From NCBI GenBank assembly GCA_947589535.1, contig CANQAS010000006.1:1-44316 (forward strand): DNA of 44,316 nucleotides, given 5' to 3'. Under the pieces are notes generated by a model, which saw only the letters and a list, made by a program, of their open reading frames with translations, was not told the DNA's origin and did no database searches. Positions 19,746-44,316 of the stretch are shown here, piece by piece. Position numbers and translations under genes: made by a program. Each line of letters opens with the position of its first letter. The stretch's first letter is position 1. The DNA comes from an uncultured Bacilli bacterium (lineage in GTDB: Bacteria > Bacillota_I > Bacilli_A > RF39 > UBA660).

Positions 19746-20092
19746 TATTTACCACCTAAATGTATGTGTGGTCTTGTACCAAATGTATTATCAGTTATTG
19801 CAGTTATATTGTATATTTCTTCTTGGTCTAAATCTTGTTGTGTTATTATATCCAGAGTTAAATTTCCTTTAATAAGTATATCTCCAACCTTGAAATTTTT
19901 AACATCTAAACTTGGGTTATTTTGATAAAAAATTCTAATTTCAACATCGTTAGCATCATCATATCCTTTATTGGTACCAGCACCTCTTCCACCGAACCAC
20001 CAAATATTCTCATAATTAAATCTAGTCCAAATTTCTATGTTATTATTTTCATCAAAATCTTTGTGATATACTGTTAAATCAGCATTTTTCAT
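19745..20092 (-). CDS. Head closure / connector protein, DUF6751-like
   Basis: 115 aa, beta-rich. ADLTVYHKDFDENNNIEIWT, RFNYENIWWFGGRGAG and VGDILIKGNL resemble the DUF6751 connector proteins. A C-terminal RPHIHLGGK is typical. Its start overlaps the previous stop. Probably closes the portal channel after packaging. Confidence 0.7.
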   Translation of the reverse strand: MKNADLTVYHKDFDENNNIEIWTRFNYENIWWFGGRGAGTNKGYDDANDVEIRIFYQNNPSLDVKNFKVGDILIKGNLTLDIITQQDLDQEEIYNITAITDNTFGTRPHIHLGGK

Positions 20093-20493
20093 TAAACACC
20101 TCTATATAAATAAGGTGTACCATCTTCAAGTTTACAATCTATTAAATATGTTCTTATAATATTACTCATCTCATTACTTTTAACATTTTCAATTGAACTA
20201 TCTACACTGTTACTAGTTGAGTTATAACTATAACTATAACCATCAATATTTTCACTTGCCAATGCTCTATCTTGTTCTTCCAAATTCTTATAACTGTTAG
20301 CAACATTTATAAGTTTATACATACATAATTTAACTTCATCTACTTGTGATAATAAATTCTTTAATCTTCCAAATGTGTATTTATCTATATATTGTCTTGC
20401 TTCAAATTCTAATAAATTAAAAGGCATTTCTTCTAGTAAACCTCCTAATTCTTTATACTCTGTATATGTTAAGTATTGTCCACTAAATTCCAT
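20092..20493 (-). CDS. Head-tail connector (gp6-like)
   Basis: 133 aa, helical. SGQYLTYTEYKELGGLLEEM, PFNLLEFEARQYIDKYTFGR and LKNLLSQVDEVKLCMYKLI match connector proteins that follow the major capsid gene. SD AAAGGAGG stands 7 nt before the ATG, 14 bp after the stop of the capsid extension. A Ser-rich loop near residues 85-105. Confidence 0.8.
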   Translation of the reverse strand: MEFSGQYLTYTEYKELGGLLEEMPFNLLEFEARQYIDKYTFGRLKNLLSQVDEVKLCMYKLINVANSYKNLEEQDRALASENIDGYSYSYNSTSNSVDSSIENVKSNEMSNIIRTYLIDCKLEDGTPYLYRGV

Positions 20494-20509: not shown

Positions 20510-20926
20510 TTATATAGCAATGTCTAATTCTACTTCTTTTAAATTAAGTGTTCTTGTTTCTTTTCCTTCACTAGTTATTTCAATAGTATTGTCTTTGTTA
20601 TGTATTTGAAATACTATTAAACCATCTTTTTCATCAACTGCAACAGGTTTCTTTAATTTTGCTCCTGTTCCTTTAAGTTCACATTTAACAGTTCCTTTTG
20701 CTTGACCTTTTGCTTCTTCAAAATATAATGGTAAATAATTTCCTGATTGCTCATCATCTATTGATGAAAATTCAGTAAAATTTGATACATATTTTAATTT
20801 ACCTGTTACATTATCTCCTTCTATACTTACATTTTCACATAGGTCTTGTACTGTTTTTTCTCCTAAATTTAGTGAAGTTTCATTACTTGGAACACTTACT
20901 TTTATTTTGCCCTCTTCGGGCGTGCT
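20510..20926 (-). CDS. C-terminal extension of the capsid protein, made by +1 frameshift (138 codons)
   Basis: Open frame with TAA at 20510-20512 and, upstream, a stop at 20948-20950 inside the capsid gene. No ATG, GTG or TTG occurs anywhere in it, so it cannot start by itself. It follows the capsid frame in +1 phase from CCC TAG. The product begins STPEEGKIKVSVPSNETSLN and contains LKYVSNFTEFSS, EQSGNYLPLYF and VKCELKGTGAKLKKPVAV, an Ig-like beta sandwich of the kind displayed on phage capsids. It gives a 441-aa minor form of the coat protein, probably exposed on the head surface. Confidence 0.85.
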   Translation of the reverse strand, partial: STPEEGKIKVSVPSNETSLNLGEKTVQDLCENVSIEGDNVTGKLKYVSNFTEFSSIDDEQSGNYLPLYFEEAKGQAKGTVKCELKGTGAKLKKPVAVDEKDGLIVFQIHNKDNTIEITSEGKETRTLNLKEVELDIAI

Positions 20927-20930
20927 AGGG
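20909..20930 (-). promoter_or_regulatory. Programmed +1 frameshift site: CCC TAG plus hairpin
   Basis: Capsid frame ends ACT CCC TAG (930-925). A peptidyl-tRNA on CCC can slip to CCT, after which AGC ACG continues the other frame. Three nt past the stop begins a hairpin with GCCC/GGGC arms (918-921 and 909-912) and a 5-nt loop, the most GC-rich spot in the surroundings. An alternative pairing CCCT/AGGG would hide the shift site itself. Confidence 0.75.
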
Positions 20931-21836
20931 AGTTTTTGTGAATTCTGCTAGCACAACTTTTGTTTCATCAGTTAAAGCAACTGTATAATGTTCATCAATA
21001 GAAATGTCTGTTGTTCTATTTAATGTATGTCTTTCAGTTTCAACATTTGCATTTCTCTTCATATAAATTGTTACTGCTGATGTTTCATCTCCTGTTTGTG
21101 TTTGTGGTTTTAATTGTACGATAGGACATTGATATTTATTTAAACTTGCTTGTTCTGCTACATTATCACATGCTTTTCTTGATACAACTATTCTTGTATT
21201 TGCTATCATACCAATTTCACCTCTCATAATAACATTGTTATTATATTTATCATTACTTATGAAATTAGCATCTTTTCTTAAAGTTGCAACTTGGTCTGGG
21301 TGAATAAACATTACTTTTTCAACATTTTCTTCTTCTCCAAATTTTGCTATTGCATCAACAACATTGTTATAACTTATTTCACCCTCTGCCTCAAATTTTA
21401 ATTTTGCTTTCTTTAATTCATCAAATACATCATTATCAATTTTACTAGCAATAGATTTTGCTAATTGGTTATTTGCTTCTCCAACAGGATTTCCATAACC
21501 ACTTAATATTGCTTCATCAGTTAAAGTTACTGCCTTCATTGCTTTCTTAACTGTGTATGTATCAGTATCAGTTTCTAGTTTAACTGTTCCTGCTTCTACT
21601 CCTTCTGCAACATCTTCTGCATCACCAATGTATTTATATCTTGGTACTGTTATTGTACTTCCAGGTTGTCCTACAAGTGTATTATCAACCTTTGCAAATG
21701 GTGTAGCAACTATTGCATTTACTATTTTAGCACTAATCATTGGTGCCATTACTTCTGGGTCAACTAAATTTTCTAATTTAGTAGTTCCAGCCGCAAATAA
21801 TTGAATATTTAATTTAAAATTTTTATTCTTTTCCAT
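20925..21836 (-). CDS. Major capsid protein, HK97-fold (N4-gp56-like)
   Basis: 303 aa in the zero frame. N-terminal tag FKLNIQLFAAG, then LVDPEVMAPMISAKIVNAIV, a GQPGSTITVPRYKYIGDAED segment, AVTLTDEAILSG and a P-domain near KVMFIHPDQVATLRK, as in the N4-gp56 group of major capsid proteins. It forms the icosahedral shell. It ends with TKTP and TAG, where a fraction of ribosomes likely shift to +1 and add 138 codons. The scaffold gene is directly upstream and connectors follow. Expressed from the consensus promoter at 22500-22529. Confidence 0.92.
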   Translation of the reverse strand: MEKNKNFKLNIQLFAAGTTKLENLVDPEVMAPMISAKIVNAIVATPFAKVDNTLVGQPGSTITVPRYKYIGDAEDVAEGVEAGTVKLETDTDTYTVKKAMKAVTLTDEAILSGYGNPVGEANNQLAKSIASKIDNDVFDELKKAKLKFEAEGEISYNNVVDAIAKFGEEENVEKVMFIHPDQVATLRKDANFISNDKYNNNVIMRGEIGMIANTRIVVSRKACDNVAEQASLNKYQCPIVQLKPQTQTGDETSAVTIYMKRNANVETERHTLNRTTDISIDEHYTVALTDETKVVLAEFTKTP

Positions 21837-21850
21837 TTCCTTTTCCTTTC

Positions 21851-22405
21851 TTATTCATTAAATTTTTTGAATAACTCAGGATTTTCTTGTTTAAATGCTA
21901 CCCTTTCTTTATATCCCATTTTATCAAAATCTTCTTTTGATACATTACCTGTTTCAATATCTTTAACATCAGGCATATCTATTTGAGCATTTGGGTTAAC
22001 AAATATATCAGTTTTATCCTTTGTTATTTCTTCGAATAAATCTTTTGCTGATTTACCCATATTTGCATTATCTTTTAATGCTGTTTTAATTTCATTAATA
22101 ATTGAATTTTTAGTATACTCATTTACAAATTGTTTATCTTTAAGAACACTATTTATATTATTTGTTAAAATTGTATCTTCTTCTTTTAACTTTTTATCTT
22201 GTTCTTCTTTTTCAACTTTTGCATTTAATTCATCATACTTTTCTTTCCAATTATTATTTTCTGTTGAATTTTCTTTTAAGGTAGATAATTTGTTTTGTAA
22301 ATCAGTAATCTTTTCTTTATCTTTTGTTACTAATTTACCGTGTTCTGCCATAATACTATCTATGGTTTCATCATCTAATTCTAATCCTTTTAAAAATTCT
22401 CTCAT
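21851..22405 (-). CDS. Capsid scaffolding protein
   Basis: 184 aa, almost entirely helical and charged. LKGLELDDETIDSIMAEHGK start, a long coiled coil (about 30-80), then INEIKTALKDNANMGKSAKD and a C-terminal MGYKERVAFKQENPELFKKF that resembles the capsid-contacting end of phage scaffolds. First gene after the strong promoter at 22500-22529, directly followed by the major capsid gene. SD GAAGGAGAGG. Confidence 0.88.
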   Translation of the reverse strand: MREFLKGLELDDETIDSIMAEHGKLVTKDKEKITDLQNKLSTLKENSTENNNWKEKYDELNAKVEKEEQDKKLKEEDTILTNNINSVLKDKQFVNEYTKNSIINEIKTALKDNANMGKSAKDLFEEITKDKTDIFVNPNAQIDMPDVKDIETGNVSKEDFDKMGYKERVAFKQENPELFKKFNE

Positions 22406-34974: not shown

Positions 34975-36288
34975 TCACATTCTTGTTTTTAATACTTCTT
35001 CTCTTTTCAAGCCCTTTTGTTTTTCAAATGTTACTTCTTGATTATATTTATATATAATATTATTATCTTCATCATAGCCATCTGGTATTAATACTTTTTC
35101 AAATATTTTATATGGACTTTGCCCCATTTTTGGGTTGTTCCATAAATAATGTAAATAATCTTTCATAGTCATATCACTAAATTTTGCACGATTTTCACTT
35201 GAAGTAAAATTAAATCCCTCTGCTGAGTTATATTGAAAATCTAAAAAATACATATCTTTTTCAATATCTTTCCAATAAACTTTACCTGTTGCTTTTGCTA
35301 TTTGTAATGCTGATGAGAAATTACCTCTTGAATAATCCCAATTCTTATTTAAAGCACAACAACAACAATTATTAGAACATTCTTTAAAATGAGCATCACT
35401 TACATAAAATCTCATACCTAATTCATCGCATATTCTTTTCATATCTTTTATGTATTTTTCTTTAATCTTTCTATTAAGTCTTAAATAACCTGTTCCTGTT
35501 GAATGCTTTTTATAAAAATCTACTATATCAAATCCACAACATTCACTAATAGTTTTATAATGTTCTTTTGCTTGATTAACACTTCTAACCTCTAAGCAAA
35601 AAAACTCTGTTGTTACTGCTGTTGCTCCTGCTTTATGTGCTTCTCTAATTAATTCTTCATAATCTTCACTACTAATTCCAGGTATAAATGGTCTTAATCT
35701 TAAAGTAGCACCACCTTTGCTTAATTTATTCCATTCTTTCATTGCTTCAAGTCTTTTTCTCGGAGATGGTACACCTACTTCTACTTTCTTTGCCTTTTCT
35801 TCATTTAAAGTAATAATACTAAATTTCATATTCCAGTTATCTGCACCTTTAAATAATTCTCTATATTTATCATCAAAAAATACCCACGCACTTTTTGTAC
35901 TAAAGCATATTGGATAGTTTATTTCTTTTAAATATTTTAATAATTCATAAGTCTTCCCATACTTCTTTTCAAATCCATCAAATTGGTCACTTAATCCACC
36001 ATATTGAATAGGTCTTTTATCTTTTACATATTTATAAAATTGACTTTTTTCATCTTCACCACTTAAAATCTTTTTAACCTTTTCAACATTAATACATTTA
36101 ACTAATTTATTTTTATATTCTTCTTTTCCTTTACCTATACCTCTTTGATATTGACTAAAGCAATATACACAACCAAAAGAGCAATTACTATATGTATCTA
36201 ATGTCATAGGTAAAGAACAATCAGCAATTTCTCCAGTCCATCTAGGACTGCCATAAGTTTGTTCTATATCTTCTTTATTTTCTGCCAT
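34975..36288 (-). CDS. Radical SAM enzyme with extra C-terminal cysteines
   Basis: 437 aa. TYSNCSFGCVYCFSQYQRG holds the CxxxCxxC motif (about residue 35-42) that binds the [4Fe-4S] cluster; a TIM-barrel body follows (ICFSTKSAWVF, WNMKFSIITLNEEKAKKVEV, GATLRLRPFIPGI), related to the spore photoproduct lyase-like branch. A second cluster FKECSNNCCCCALNKNWDYS near residue 305-325 may bind an auxiliary Fe-S centre. Reaction unknown; by context it modifies DNA bases. It lies between a glycosyltransferase-like gene (14-bp overlap) and SAM synthetase. Confidence 0.85.
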   Translation of the reverse strand: MAENKEDIEQTYGSPRWTGEIADCSLPMTLDTYSNCSFGCVYCFSQYQRGIGKGKEEYKNKLVKCINVEKVKKILSGEDEKSQFYKYVKDKRPIQYGGLSDQFDGFEKKYGKTYELLKYLKEINYPICFSTKSAWVFFDDKYRELFKGADNWNMKFSIITLNEEKAKKVEVGVPSPRKRLEAMKEWNKLSKGGATLRLRPFIPGISSEDYEELIREAHKAGATAVTTEFFCLEVRSVNQAKEHYKTISECCGFDIVDFYKKHSTGTGYLRLNRKIKEKYIKDMKRICDELGMRFYVSDAHFKECSNNCCCCALNKNWDYSRGNFSSALQIAKATGKVYWKDIEKDMYFLDFQYNSAEGFNFTSSENRAKFSDMTMKDYLHYLWNNPKMGQSPYKIFEKVLIPDGYDEDNNIIYKYNQEVTFEKQKGLKREEVLKTRM

Positions 36289-37012
36289 TTTTCTTTCCTT
36301 TCATTATAATACTATTTTTCTTGTTACCCCTCTTTATTAAGGTTGGATACTTTAATAATATTTTTCTAGTACATTCATCATCTTTGTTGTTTTTCCAAAA
36401 TTCTTCGCAACCACCTTTTGATTTATGTTTTCCTTTTGCGTGAATAAAATTAAATCTTATACAATTATACCCATCTTTAATAGTATGTAAACATATTTCA
36501 AAATCTTCTTTTATTTTAAAATCACTGTTAAATCTATAATCATCAATTATTATTCCCATAATACAACCTACACCAAAATTCTTTTTATCAATTGTATTAC
36601 TCATAAAAAAGCCATTTTCAACAGGATAACCCGTCCATATTAATGCGTTATTTTTTTGTGTATAATCAAAAGCATCATTTAAGAAGTTATGTAACTCATC
36701 TTTTGTAAATGGTTTTATTTGTTTATTATCTAAATGTCCAACAAATTTTAAATCATCATCTAACATTATCATTTTAGTTCCTTTAGGAAAATTATTTAAT
36801 AATGTATTTCTGTTATCTGATACACAACTACCCTCATTATAAATAATATTTGCTCTTTCACCATATTTATTTAAGTAGTTTTCATAATCTTCTTTAGTTT
36901 GTGTAGAAATATATATTTGTTCTTTAGAATAGCCCATACTTTCAAGATAATCTAATGTTAGTTGCTCTTCACATCTTTTATAACTAGGTATTCCAAATAT
37001 AAAGTTATTCAT
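36275..37012 (-). CDS. GT-A fold glycosyltransferase-like protein
   Basis: 245 aa. FIFGIPSYKRCEEQLTLDYL start (nucleotide-sugar fold), GSCVSDNRNTLLNNFPKGTK then IMLDDDL, the DxD-type metal site, and a later KIKEDFEICLHTIKDGYNCI followed by HAKGKHKSKGGCEEFW. This order (DDD, ED, H..GGC) recalls the GT-A enzymes predicted or shown to glycosylate modified bases in phage DNA (TET-associated glycosyltransferase-like). No TET/JBP dioxygenase is visible here. Overlaps ParB-like and radical SAM genes on either side. Confidence 0.65.
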   Translation of the reverse strand: MNNFIFGIPSYKRCEEQLTLDYLESMGYSKEQIYISTQTKEDYENYLNKYGERANIIYNEGSCVSDNRNTLLNNFPKGTKMIMLDDDLKFVGHLDNKQIKPFTKDELHNFLNDAFDYTQKNNALIWTGYPVENGFFMSNTIDKKNFGVGCIMGIIIDDYRFNSDFKIKEDFEICLHTIKDGYNCIRFNFIHAKGKHKSKGGCEEFWKNNKDDECTRKILLKYPTLIKRGNKKNSIIMKGKKNGRK

Positions 37013-40293: not shown

Positions 40294-43173
40294 CTATAAA
40301 CAAAATGCAGGAGCTAGCCCATAGCTGTCATTACTATTGCGATTGCTAGCCGAACCATCACTATGAACATCAATCCAAGAATAAGAGTTATAAGAGCTGG
40401 GACTTCTTAACCAATAGTAACTATTGTTACCACTTGCAACCCCGTTTTTATTCCAAAATTTTGTTCTTTTAGCATTTGAATTATAGTATGGATATTGCTC
40501 TCCTTCAAGCATTACACTACCTTTATAATTACTATAACTTGCTGAGCCAAACATTTCAGGATAAGATGTTAAGAATGCCTTGTCCTCTGTATCTGGACCA
40601 GCACTAGGACTTGAACTATGGTCATTAATATTTTTCTTAATTACAGTCTTAACTAACGGTTGAATAGCACTTGGTAATGAATTTACAAATGTGTCATTTA
40701 ACCATGTTCTACGTGGGTTTTTAGAGTAATTTGAATCACTTACAGTAGATGTACTAGAACCCCAAATATAAACCCATTCTGCACTGCCATTATTTCCAAG
40801 AACCTCTTTACATTGTAAAGTTATTGCTGATTTATTTATTCCATTAATAGGTTCTTTTAAATCATCATGATTAAAGCCAATAATAACCATTGTCATATCT
40901 TGTTCTACATGACTTTCACTTGCACCTGTGCCACTAGACATTGCACTAAGATGCATCTTTCTAGTATCACCAACATTCCAATAATCTTCAATATTAATAA
41001 GACCTTTATAATGAGCATCTAAAATTTCTGCTAATTCTTCATCAGTTGCATCAGCAAATGATACTTTTTTAGGTAGTAAAGAAGTTAAAGTTGATAAAGT
41101 GGTAATCATATTACCTACTGTGCTATCAAATTCTTCTCTTGTAACATAATCACCACTTGATACTTCTATATGTTTAGGTGTTAGTGTTAGTGTACTACCA
41201 TAACTTTCCATATTACCTAAAATTGTACCTGTATAACATACATAATTTTCATTGTCAAAATATACTGCACTTACATATTTATTATGAACTACATTTTGTG
41301 CTTGAGTTGTAACACTATCATCTACACTTGTTACAAATACCATAGTAGAAGTTGTTGTACTTTCTAAATTTCCATTTATAACATTAAATTTAATTTTCAT
41401 ATTAAATATATTATTATTAGCAATAAATTTTATTTTTTCTTCATCATCTATTGTAATTGTTGGATATATGTATTTTTGTTTATCACTTTGTTGAATTTCT
41501 GCTGATAATTCTAAAGTAGGAATTTCACTATTAATTAATTGATTTACTTTTTCATCTAAATCTTGTCCTTTTAATGCACCCAATACAGCATTTGTTGGTA
41601 CATCAGTTTTAACATCTAGGTTATCAATTTCTACAATAGTTTCAGTTGCACCACTTTTATTCTTAACATTAACAATAGTTTGAGAACTAAATCCGCCATT
41701 TTCTTCATCTGGTTTTAATTCTCTTGATAATGTTTGAAGTAAATCTCTTGTTTCTTCATCTACTTTACTGCTAACTGTTGTATCAACATAATTTTTGTGT
41801 GCTGGTATATAATCACTATAAACACTATATTGTTTTTCATTATCAAATGTAATTAGTCTAGAAACAGATGTTACTTGACTACTTAATGAATTACCATCAC
41901 TTGTTACATTTCCAACGTAAATATTACCATTAGGTAACAAAATTGTATAATTTTTACTATTACTAAGTGCATTTTTAGCTATACAAATTATAGTTCCTAT
42001 TGACATAGCCATTGGTACAGGAAATAAAGCATTTGCTCCAAAATCCAATTTTAATTGCTTTGTTACTGCATAATTTCCTTCTTCTAATTCCCATACATTT
42101 GTATCACTTTCTAATTTTGAAAATGTAATTTCACTTTGTTTAGCATAGTCTTGAAGTGCTGTATTTAATTTTTCAGTATTAATATAATCATCTAAATTAA
42201 TCTTTGTAGTTCCTATTAATTCAAATGATTGTTCTTCTTCAAGCCATATATATTCATTTTTAATGTTATTTTCTTCTTGTTCTAAAGATGGTACTAAATA
42301 AATGTAATTACTTTCTCCTTGTTCTGGTAGAACATCAACTAATTTTAAATTAATTGTTTTAATTGCACTTATTCTTTGGTTTATTTCTTCTTGAGTATAT
42401 GTTTCTGTCTTTTTATAATAATTTTCTAAATCATCAACTGCTTTTGTTATAAAATTTTTAACATCAGGAATTTCTTGTTTTGTTGCATATTTATCATCAC
42501 TTGTAGTTTTATCATAGTAATTTTCTAAATCTGTAACATCTTTTTTAATAAAATCTTTTGTATTAGGTATTTCATCTTTAGTAGCATAAGTTGTACTTGC
42601 TGTTTGTTTATCTAAAAACTTTTCATCTGCATCTTTTGTTTTTAAATAATCTTTTAAGTCTATTCCACTTACTTTATCATCAACTTCTTGCTTTGAATAT
42701 GTTTCTTCTTTTGTGTAATAATTATTCTTTAAATCATCACTTAATTTTTTTGTGTCATCTTCTACTTTACTTATTCTTTCATCAACTACTACGAACCATA
42801 CTTTATAATCTTCAGGAATTTCTTTACTAATTGTATTAATGCTATTATCAATTTTGAAATCAAATATTTCACTTTTAGTTATAACTATATCATCTTTAAT
42901 TAATGTAAATTGCATTTGAATATAACTATATTTCAAAATACTATCATAAATTGGTACAACATATTTATTATCTTCTGTTTTATATTCTTGAATTTTAATA
43001 AAATATTTCTTGTCGTGTTGTCTTATTTCTAAATATGCTTCAGTGTTATCATCAACACTCATTTCTGTTTCTATTATTAGGTTTCTAGTTTTATTTTCTC
43101 CAATATAACCAATTGTATTCTTGGATAATTCAACTTTTCCATTAATAGAAATTTTTACATTTACATCATCCAT
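40294..43173 (-). CDS. Tail fibre / receptor-binding protein with DUF6273 tip (959 aa)
   Basis: Residues 1-130 look like a BppU-type baseplate-anchoring N-domain (NTIGYIGENKTRNLIIETEM, YLEIRQHDKKYFIKIQ). Then a long stalk with imperfect repeats (EIPNTKDFIKKDVTDLENYY, EIPDVKNFITKAVDDLENYY), beta modules, and at 760-959 the DUF6273 domain: DYWNVGDTRKMHLSAMSSGT, NPRRTWLNDTFV, KAFLTSYPEMFGSASYSNYK, YWLRSPSSYNSYS ... YGLAPAFCL. The tip likely binds the host surface. The last 35 residues differ most from the paralogue and are rich in NNY codons. Located at the end of the early unit, away from other tail genes. Confidence 0.8.
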   Translation of the reverse strand: MDDVNVKISINGKVELSKNTIGYIGENKTRNLIIETEMSVDDNTEAYLEIRQHDKKYFIKIQEYKTEDNKYVVPIYDSILKYSYIQMQFTLIKDDIVITKSEIFDFKIDNSINTISKEIPEDYKVWFVVVDERISKVEDDTKKLSDDLKNNYYTKEETYSKQEVDDKVSGIDLKDYLKTKDADEKFLDKQTASTTYATKDEIPNTKDFIKKDVTDLENYYDKTTSDDKYATKQEIPDVKNFITKAVDDLENYYKKTETYTQEEINQRISAIKTINLKLVDVLPEQGESNYIYLVPSLEQEENNIKNEYIWLEEEQSFELIGTTKINLDDYINTEKLNTALQDYAKQSEITFSKLESDTNVWELEEGNYAVTKQLKLDFGANALFPVPMAMSIGTIICIAKNALSNSKNYTILLPNGNIYVGNVTSDGNSLSSQVTSVSRLITFDNEKQYSVYSDYIPAHKNYVDTTVSSKVDEETRDLLQTLSRELKPDEENGGFSSQTIVNVKNKSGATETIVEIDNLDVKTDVPTNAVLGALKGQDLDEKVNQLINSEIPTLELSAEIQQSDKQKYIYPTITIDDEEKIKFIANNNIFNMKIKFNVINGNLESTTTSTMVFVTSVDDSVTTQAQNVVHNKYVSAVYFDNENYVCYTGTILGNMESYGSTLTLTPKHIEVSSGDYVTREEFDSTVGNMITTLSTLTSLLPKKVSFADATDEELAEILDAHYKGLINIEDYWNVGDTRKMHLSAMSSGTGASESHVEQDMTMVIIGFNHDDLKEPINGINKSAITLQCKEVLGNNGSAEWVYIWGSSTSTVSDSNYSKNPRRTWLNDTFVNSLPSAIQPLVKTVIKKNINDHSSSPSAGPDTEDKAFLTSYPEMFGSASYSNYKGSVMLEGEQYPYYNSNAKRTKFWNKNGVASGNNSYYWLRSPSSYNSYSWIDVHSDGSASNRNSNDSYGLAPAFCL
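40810..40919 (-). repeat. Duplicated segment of the receptor domain, copy 2
   Basis: Partner of 39891-40000: 107 of 110 bases equal, with a 71-bp identical block at 40810-40880. Could mediate recombination that swaps the C-terminal tips of the two genes. Confidence 0.85.
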
Positions 43174-44158: not shown

Positions 44159-44316
44159 TTATTTTTCCTCCAACTTTTCTATTATTTTTCGTTGATTTTT
44201 AATAAGTTGATTTATTTTTGCTATATAAATATTTCTATCTTTTGCATTTGTATTCATTAAATGTCTTACTTTATCATCATCATAAAATTCTATACTTGTA
44301 TCAATAAGTTTTATTT
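44159..44316 (-). CDS. 3' part of the junction-spanning hypothetical gene
   Basis: Continuation of the gene that starts at 315. From the join (44239) the codons read DRNIYIAKINQLIKNQRKII then EKLEEK and TAA at 44159-44161. Bases 44240-44316 repeat 1-77 and are redundant. The open frame through the join is evidence that the molecule is circular or permuted. Confidence 0.85.
   Translation of the reverse strand, partial: IKLIDTSIEFYDDDKVRHLMNTNAKDRNIYIAKINQLIKNQRKIIEKLEEK
44240..44316. repeat. Terminal direct repeat, right copy
   Basis: Identical to bases 1-77. Should be removed when the circular map is drawn. Confidence 0.95.

Follow-up and report, generated by a model that had tools for sequence, protein, structure and literature searches.

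How a long reading frame that begins at the stop codon of a phage major capsid gene, and has no start codon of its own, comes to be translated is the question raised by the window, as we call the whole 44,316-nucleotide stretch of DNA analysed here. We think it very likely that one gene yields two coat proteins by +1 slippage at a CCC codon, and that the domain so appended forms a cassette with its slip signal.

The window carries portal, terminase and tape-measure genes in addition to the head genes of Table 1, and its ends are an exact 77-nt terminal repeat (1-77 = 44240-44316) that fits a circular assembly; it is therefore taken to be a whole phage or close to one, and the contig is probably circular and complete. 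The capsid protein matches the phrog_544 profile (major head protein) at 3e-82 over residues 15-302, most of its length, and PF25209 (Phage_capsid_4) at 3.5e-15, and has one relative in the PDB (9m66 'Gp6', 1.8e-45). A GGAGG lies close 5' of the ATG of the head-tail adaptor gene. Far from the head genes, a 959-aa protein (40294-43173, minus strand) matches a Hoc-like head decoration family with its C-terminal part (1.4e-9) and is possibly a second display protein. Two proteins (34975-37012, minus strand) encoded near the terminase gene, one weakly matching radical SAM and the other glucosyltransferase-like, are unusual neighbours for packaging genes.

Table 1. Coordinates in the window of the capsid gene, its proposed recoding signal and adjacent features.
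Feature	Position	Strand	Evidence
Head scaffolding protein gene, upstream	21851..22405	-	PF06810 1e-7, slightly under its cut-off; phrog_194 2.7e-6
Major capsid gene, 303 aa (0-frame product), TAG at 20925-20927	20925..21836	-	phrog_544, PF25209, PDB 9m66
Candidate +1 shift site ACT CCC TAG (CCC, 20928-20930, would slip to CCT)	20925..20933	-	CCC rarity, tRNA set
+1-frame extension, 138 codons and stop (20510-20512)	20510..20926	-	phrog_31690-type all-beta domain, no own start codon
3' hairpin GCCC-GAAGA-GGGC, proposed stimulator	20909..20921	-	3 nt past stop; synonymous-codon null
Head-tail adaptor gene, downstream	20092..20493	-	phrog_541 1.4e-18

The capsid frame (21836->20925) ends ACA AAA ACT CCC TAG. 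Skipping the T of TAG leads into the +1 frame (20926->20513), whose 138 codons (STPEEGK...DIAI) contain no ATG, GTG or TTG, the non-standard candidates being confined to ATA (seven) and ATT (two), and reading on through CCCT gives a fusion of 441 aa. The hairpin (20921->20909) is predicted at -8.1 kcal/mol (z -2.5). The initial annotation had placed a major capsid gene with a +1 extension at 20510-21836, naming no strand; its account of the ACT CCC TAG end, the start-less 138-codon frame, the GC-rich hairpin from three nucleotides after the stop and the 441-aa length all proved accurate, on the minus strand.

With CCC as the last sense codon before the stop and the +1 frame open, the locus falls among CCC-stop sites. 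Across the 46 genes of the window, CCC accounts for 2 of 11,513 codons and 2 of 233 proline codons, one of the two being the last codon of the capsid gene; on the minus strand of the window, CCCTAG occurs once and CCCTAA is absent. No tRNA gene is encoded in the window, and a single tRNA-Pro, with anticodon UGG, was found among the tRNAs of the bin, of which 34 of 34 could be typed (ARAGORN). As the contig is probably a circular phage, its host assignment, and hence the tRNA argument, depends on binning, and the bin, made up of 73 contigs, reaches 95.7% completeness, so that a tRNA-Pro(GGG) may have been missed.

The extension matches phrog_31690, a family annotated as of unknown function, at 2.3e-15 (residues 30-130 of 138 on profile positions 2-100 of 107), and is 75% identical over 132 aligned residues to the extension of a related capsid gene, L037, from which it differs 26, 17 and 48 times at the first, second and third codon positions. 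This excess at third positions, as expected of a translated frame, the profile match, the rarity of CCC and the single CCCTAG on that strand together indicate that the open +1 frame is more than chance. The earlier description of the extension as an Ig-like beta domain holds for its beta part, a model predicted from 12 sequences being all-beta (pLDDT 84.7); the Ig-like part is not established, no Ig family being among the Pfam matches of the window extension and 34 family members, and the best Z of a VIA structure comparison, with rows including FN3, Ig-like and macroglobulin domains, being 5.8, under the usual background. Searched with the model, Foldseek returned nothing from the PDB at E <= 0.001 (best E 1.2e-2), and BFVD gave three uncharacterised phage proteins at E <= 7e-9; searched by sequence, the PDB yielded nothing at E <= 1 for a 12-row extension profile and two weak unrelated chains for a 34-row one. 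Going by the model, a beta sandwich of Ig-like fold is plausible. In tblastn searches of 50,697 phage records, the window extension found three records, and so did the extension of L061.

Relatives of the capsid protein indicate that the extension is optional. Among 43 loci with such relatives, two only end in CCC TAA, and both are followed by a long open +1 frame, of 229 codons in L037 and 123 in L038, while a third, L033, has an extension of the -1 type; CCC is never the last codon in those of the 43 that lack an extension. Since the closest relatives (L002 and L003, 75 and 74% identity) have no extension and CCC-stop is found only with one, the capsid protein is complete by itself, and CCC-stop accompanies the extension. 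The capsid protein itself was matched in 1 of 18 genomes of the same genus (the window's own) and, in the sample taken of the family, in 2 of 291.

Several relatives show other endings. In L033 (5800-6072), the capsid frame ends CCA AAA AAA GCG TAG, with a run of seven A, and is followed by an 86-codon -1 extension that we take to resemble a bacterial Ig-like (Big_2) domain. In L110 (1600-2300), one of the 8 loci counted out of 11 from a second capsid search (L108, L112 and L113 being left out), the frame ends CCC TAA. The first part of its +1 extension presumably resembles a fibronectin type III domain; a stretch of about 20 codons containing several stops then interrupts the extension, which resumes in the same frame past the break and ends in a Thr-rich repeat; the break may be an insertion, a bypass or an assembly error. 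Seven further relatives (L029-L032, L036, L041 and L042) end in GGGGGAG TAA, after which comes a short -1 frame, similar among them and 18-21 codons long, with a CCCCGG complement after the capsid stop in some of them, and may represent a second, short -1 extension class.

The distribution of the domain extends well beyond these relatives. Its profile matches 33 of 385 genomes of the order; in the phylum as a whole it matches 5 of 392, and three of those five belong to the window's family. In the 30 loci listed for the order, the domain lies in the +1 frame of another ORF in 15 (including L115, at a contig edge), in the -1 frame in 8, and in frame or otherwise in 7. Together with L037, the distinct +1 sites number 16: the window, L115-L117, L118 (= L038), L120, L123-L129, L131, L140 and L037, with L118 and L038, identical in sequence at the site and taken as one contig, counted once. 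All 16 read AC[AT] CCC TA[AG], behind capsid genes of five PHROG families, which lends strong comparative support to the initial reading of CCC plus stop as a +1 slip context; on these sequences, programmed +1 slippage on the CCC that precedes the stop is strongly supported.

This recurrence bears on whether the window locus is a decayed capsid fusion, once in frame and since deprived of a base, or the product of a sequencing or assembly indel. In-frame fusions of a phrog_31690-type domain do exist (L132 and L061), but the same CCC-stop junction at 16 distinct loci, the excess of third-position differences in the extension and a hairpin that has been kept all argue against such an accident, to which we give a minute chance.

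At the -1 sites, other slippery sequences take the place of CCC; heptamers are named by the usual X_XXY_YYZ rule. Six of the eight in the order are runs of 9-10 A (L119, L121, L122, L133, L134 and L139), the others being A_AAC_CCT (L130) and GGGGGAA (L135). On viral contigs and in phage records, the -1 sites are GGGGGGT (L060/L045, L063/L047), C_CCA_AAA (L062), G_GGA_AAA (L064) and A_AAC_CCC (L065), and the TTT-stop of L066, and of L144 from the phylum search, is a weaker case. For the six A-run sites, where 9-10 A precede the stop with no G+C stem nearby, it is possible, at somewhat less than even prospects, that slippage by RNA polymerase rather than by the ribosome makes the fusion; that process is inapplicable to the CCC class, to which the window belongs.

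Upstream of the out-of-frame domains, every scanned ORF encodes a head protein (20 of 20, and 6 of 6), the L135 upstream ORF lying outside the typed set. Nine head PHROG families are represented, the window's included (544, 10, 247, 422, 267, 1328, 212, 29 and 3270); there are weak matches between some of them, and the label of 3270 is head maturation protease. Three proteins also carry the domain in frame at their end, namely a capsid protein (L132), a major tail protein (L061) and a virion structural protein (L067). L141-L143, where the domain matches long proteins weakly, were left out of the interpretation. In L136 (202-2178, minus strand), the domain is inserted in frame inside a tail sheath protein (phrog_23), and in L138, seen with L137, two in-frame copies follow an N-terminal part without a PHROG match. 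A search of viral_contigs for the pattern CCCTRR-N(0-12)-GCCCGAAGAGGGC gave seven stretches, which were taken as chance, none being a capsid gene with such an extension.

If the extension were a separate gene, it would be translated by re-initiation or from its own start just past the capsid stop. The two frames do overlap at the stop, like coupled genes, and in the record of Chenonceau phage such an extension is annotated as a separate 'hypothetical protein'. Against this stand the 138 start-less codons of the window and the absence of any start before codon 89 past the stop in L120, L126, L127 and L129, of any past the stop in L037, and of any whatever in L121. The initial annotation had named an independent gene with its own start, found in relatives, as the observation that would count against it; across the 29 out-of-frame sites listed, no start codon is shared by position. 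Moreover, a free gene would need neither AC[AT]CCCTA[AG] at each +1 site nor slippery runs at the -1 sites, and we give this explanation a very small chance. Frameshifting would instead account for some of the 'hypothetical proteins' that automatic annotation calls as separate after capsid genes.

The hairpin was examined against a synonymous-codon null, in which the extension protein was kept and codons 2-26 were redrawn from later codon use at 15 of the +1 sites, a stem being counted if it had at least 4 G-C pairs and started 2-6 nt after the stop. Such a stem is present at 14 of the 15 sites (the exception being L140), several of which share recent ancestry, the 15 falling into 7 groups by our own sequence grouping, 6 of them with a stem. 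It arises in at most 1.8% of the redrawn versions of each of these sites (P <= 0.018 each), the stem of the window being reproduced in 0 of 1000, and the A-run -1 sites have a G+C stem in 0 of 6. L115, at its contig edge, stood outside the null, its stem having been seen by eye. CCC makes up 11 of 26 proline codons within the first 26 extension codons versus 1 of 38 beyond, GCCC keeps an almost constant distance from the stop despite differing codon phases, and L117 has GCCAC/GTGGC where the others have GCCC/GGGC. By total folding energy, 11 of 15 sites stand apart from their synonymous versions (p < 0.05), and the window does not (p = 0.108), its 3' region beating the redrawn versions by the placed stem only. 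The comparison of CCC, stop and hairpin among relatives that had been proposed as a check thus favours the signal, and by these sequence measures selection acts on the hairpin in its own right, the whole signal being kept beyond what the protein needs. An upstream arm, GTGCTAGC (20947-20954), pairs with the slip region in the window; it was dropped, as nothing corresponds to it at the other 15 sites.

Slippage might be real and still incidental, the extension being a leaky, non-functional read-out. Most close capsid relatives are without it, and the extension of a tail protein in phage SPP1, an FN3 domain, is reported to leave laboratory fitness without detectable change (PMC6316719). Constraint on the extension at the protein level, the recurrence of the domain behind head proteins of nine PHROG families and constraint on the slip signal at the nucleotide level all speak against that view, and the chance we allow it is small.

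How the signal came to stand behind such different capsid genes is suggested by comparison of pairs of loci. L126 and L127, whose capsid proteins belong to phrog_1328 and phrog_267, are 96% identical over the 376 nt that begin with the slip codon and run to the stop of the extension, while the 300 nt before and after are 62% and 64% identical, against 64.3 +- 2.6% for shuffled sequence; per-position identity rises at ACTCCC and drops at the extension stop. The same contrast with the flanks is seen in the +1 pairs L124/L125 (91%), L116/L037 (83%) and L120/L116 (80%), and in the -1 pairs L060/L063 and L121/L122 (both 83%). Conversely, the capsid proteins of L037 and L038 are 90% identical and their slip site is the same, while their extensions are just 39% identical, that of L037 having an added N-terminal part. 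Both kinds of pair point to exchange at the slip site, with slip codon, stop and hairpin travelling with the domain, and this suggests that signal and domain move together between unrelated capsid genes as one cassette.

We consider it probable that the recoding signal is part of the mobile unit, which would comprise slip codon, stop, 3' hairpin and display domain or, in other versions, an A-run or GGGGGGT together with the domain. If so, a domain could be displayed at low copy on any capsid fold by a single recombination step, the dose would be set by the cassette's own frameshift signal, and the frame would follow from the cassette acquired rather than from chance landing and later adaptation. 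The latter view, that domains land in or out of frame by chance and that frameshifting is selected afterwards, is reported in PMC5009743; beside it, the present comparisons suggest a further route, in which the signal arrives along with the domain.

The anatomy of the site, its conservation and the cassette boundaries are read directly from the sequences; from them we infer slippage at some rate, incorporation into virions, outward display and a binding role, as follows. Most ribosomes would stop at TAG and release the 303-aa capsid protein. Some would stall at the very rare CCC with peptidyl-tRNA-Pro in place, a codon that the host, as assigned by binning, seems to decode only by a wobbling UGG anticodon; during the pause the stop would occupy the A site and the G+C hairpin would press at the mRNA entry side. 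The tRNA would then re-pair one base onward, from CCC to CCU, and translation would continue as AGC ACG CCC ... to give the 441-aa form with its C-terminal beta domain, a few copies of which would enter the head. Slip site, hairpin and domain, as a cassette of about 0.4-0.7 kb, would have been placed by recombination 3' of unrelated capsid genes, and the cassette, bringing its own recoding signal, would be partly expressed wherever the landing frame is right. The minor, surface-displayed 441-aa coat form that was originally envisaged is plausible, and the domain perhaps binds cell surfaces or mucus, which is a guess by analogy with other phages.

For phrog_31690, these results provide a setting, that of an accessory domain which virion structural proteins may carry, in most cases major capsid proteins and by way of frameshifting, and the joint exchange of signal and domain, seen at the level of single bases, bears on why frameshifted domains are so common on phage heads. 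Fraser et al. in 2006 reportedly described Ig-like domains on phage capsid and tail proteins. The phrog_31690-type domain resembles them as a promiscuous C-terminal beta domain joined to various structural proteins by -1 shift, +1 shift or direct fusion; it differs in having no Pfam match and at most a plausible Ig-like fold, and in that the signal moves with it. In the window it follows a major capsid gene in another frame and lacks a start codon, elsewhere it is attached to unrelated structural proteins, also in frame, and on both counts the locus belongs with frameshift-extended structural proteins. The open-licence literature yielded no paper on phrog_31690, and none that we recognised as describing a cassette of slip signal and domain.

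The type of recoding, a +1 shift at CCC-stop, is already known from experiment in tsh of Listeria phage PSA and in 17.1 of Bacillus phage SPP1, as the excerpts of two papers report (PMC5009743, PMC6316719). Of the PSA precedent first invoked for the window, the +1 shifting stands, and the closest parallels are these two genes. As in the window, tsh slips at a CCC right before the stop (CCC_UGA; PMC5009743, in excerpt); its record has ACA before CCC, as at the AC[AT] CCC sites here, and in L068 (7288-7332) a predicted stem, UCCCCU/AGGGGA, stands 3 nt past the stop (-12.1 kcal/mol), the layout of the window, whereas the excerpts name a stimulator for cps of PSA and the stop codon alone for tsh (PMC5009743). 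Unlike the window, tsh is a tail gene with a short extension of 24 codons and without a phrog_31690 domain. In SPP1 17.1/17.1* (CCC_UAA), a rare CCC slips to the frequent CCU, giving a 3:1 product ratio, and, as far as the excerpts describe it, the mechanism proposed here is that of 17.1 except for the stem (PMC6316719); 17.1, compared by description rather than by sequence, encodes a tail tube protein and carries another domain. The cps gene of PSA also lengthens a major capsid protein by a +1 shift at a proline CCC, but according to the excerpts it slips at CCC_UCC, upstream of the stop and before a pseudoknot (PMC5009743), and its extension runs about 47 codons past the stop without a phrog_31690 domain. 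Beside these systems and within the literature searched, what look new are the setting of the domain, the stem conserved past the CCC-stop of capsid genes, and the joint movement of signal and domain from one capsid gene to an unrelated one.
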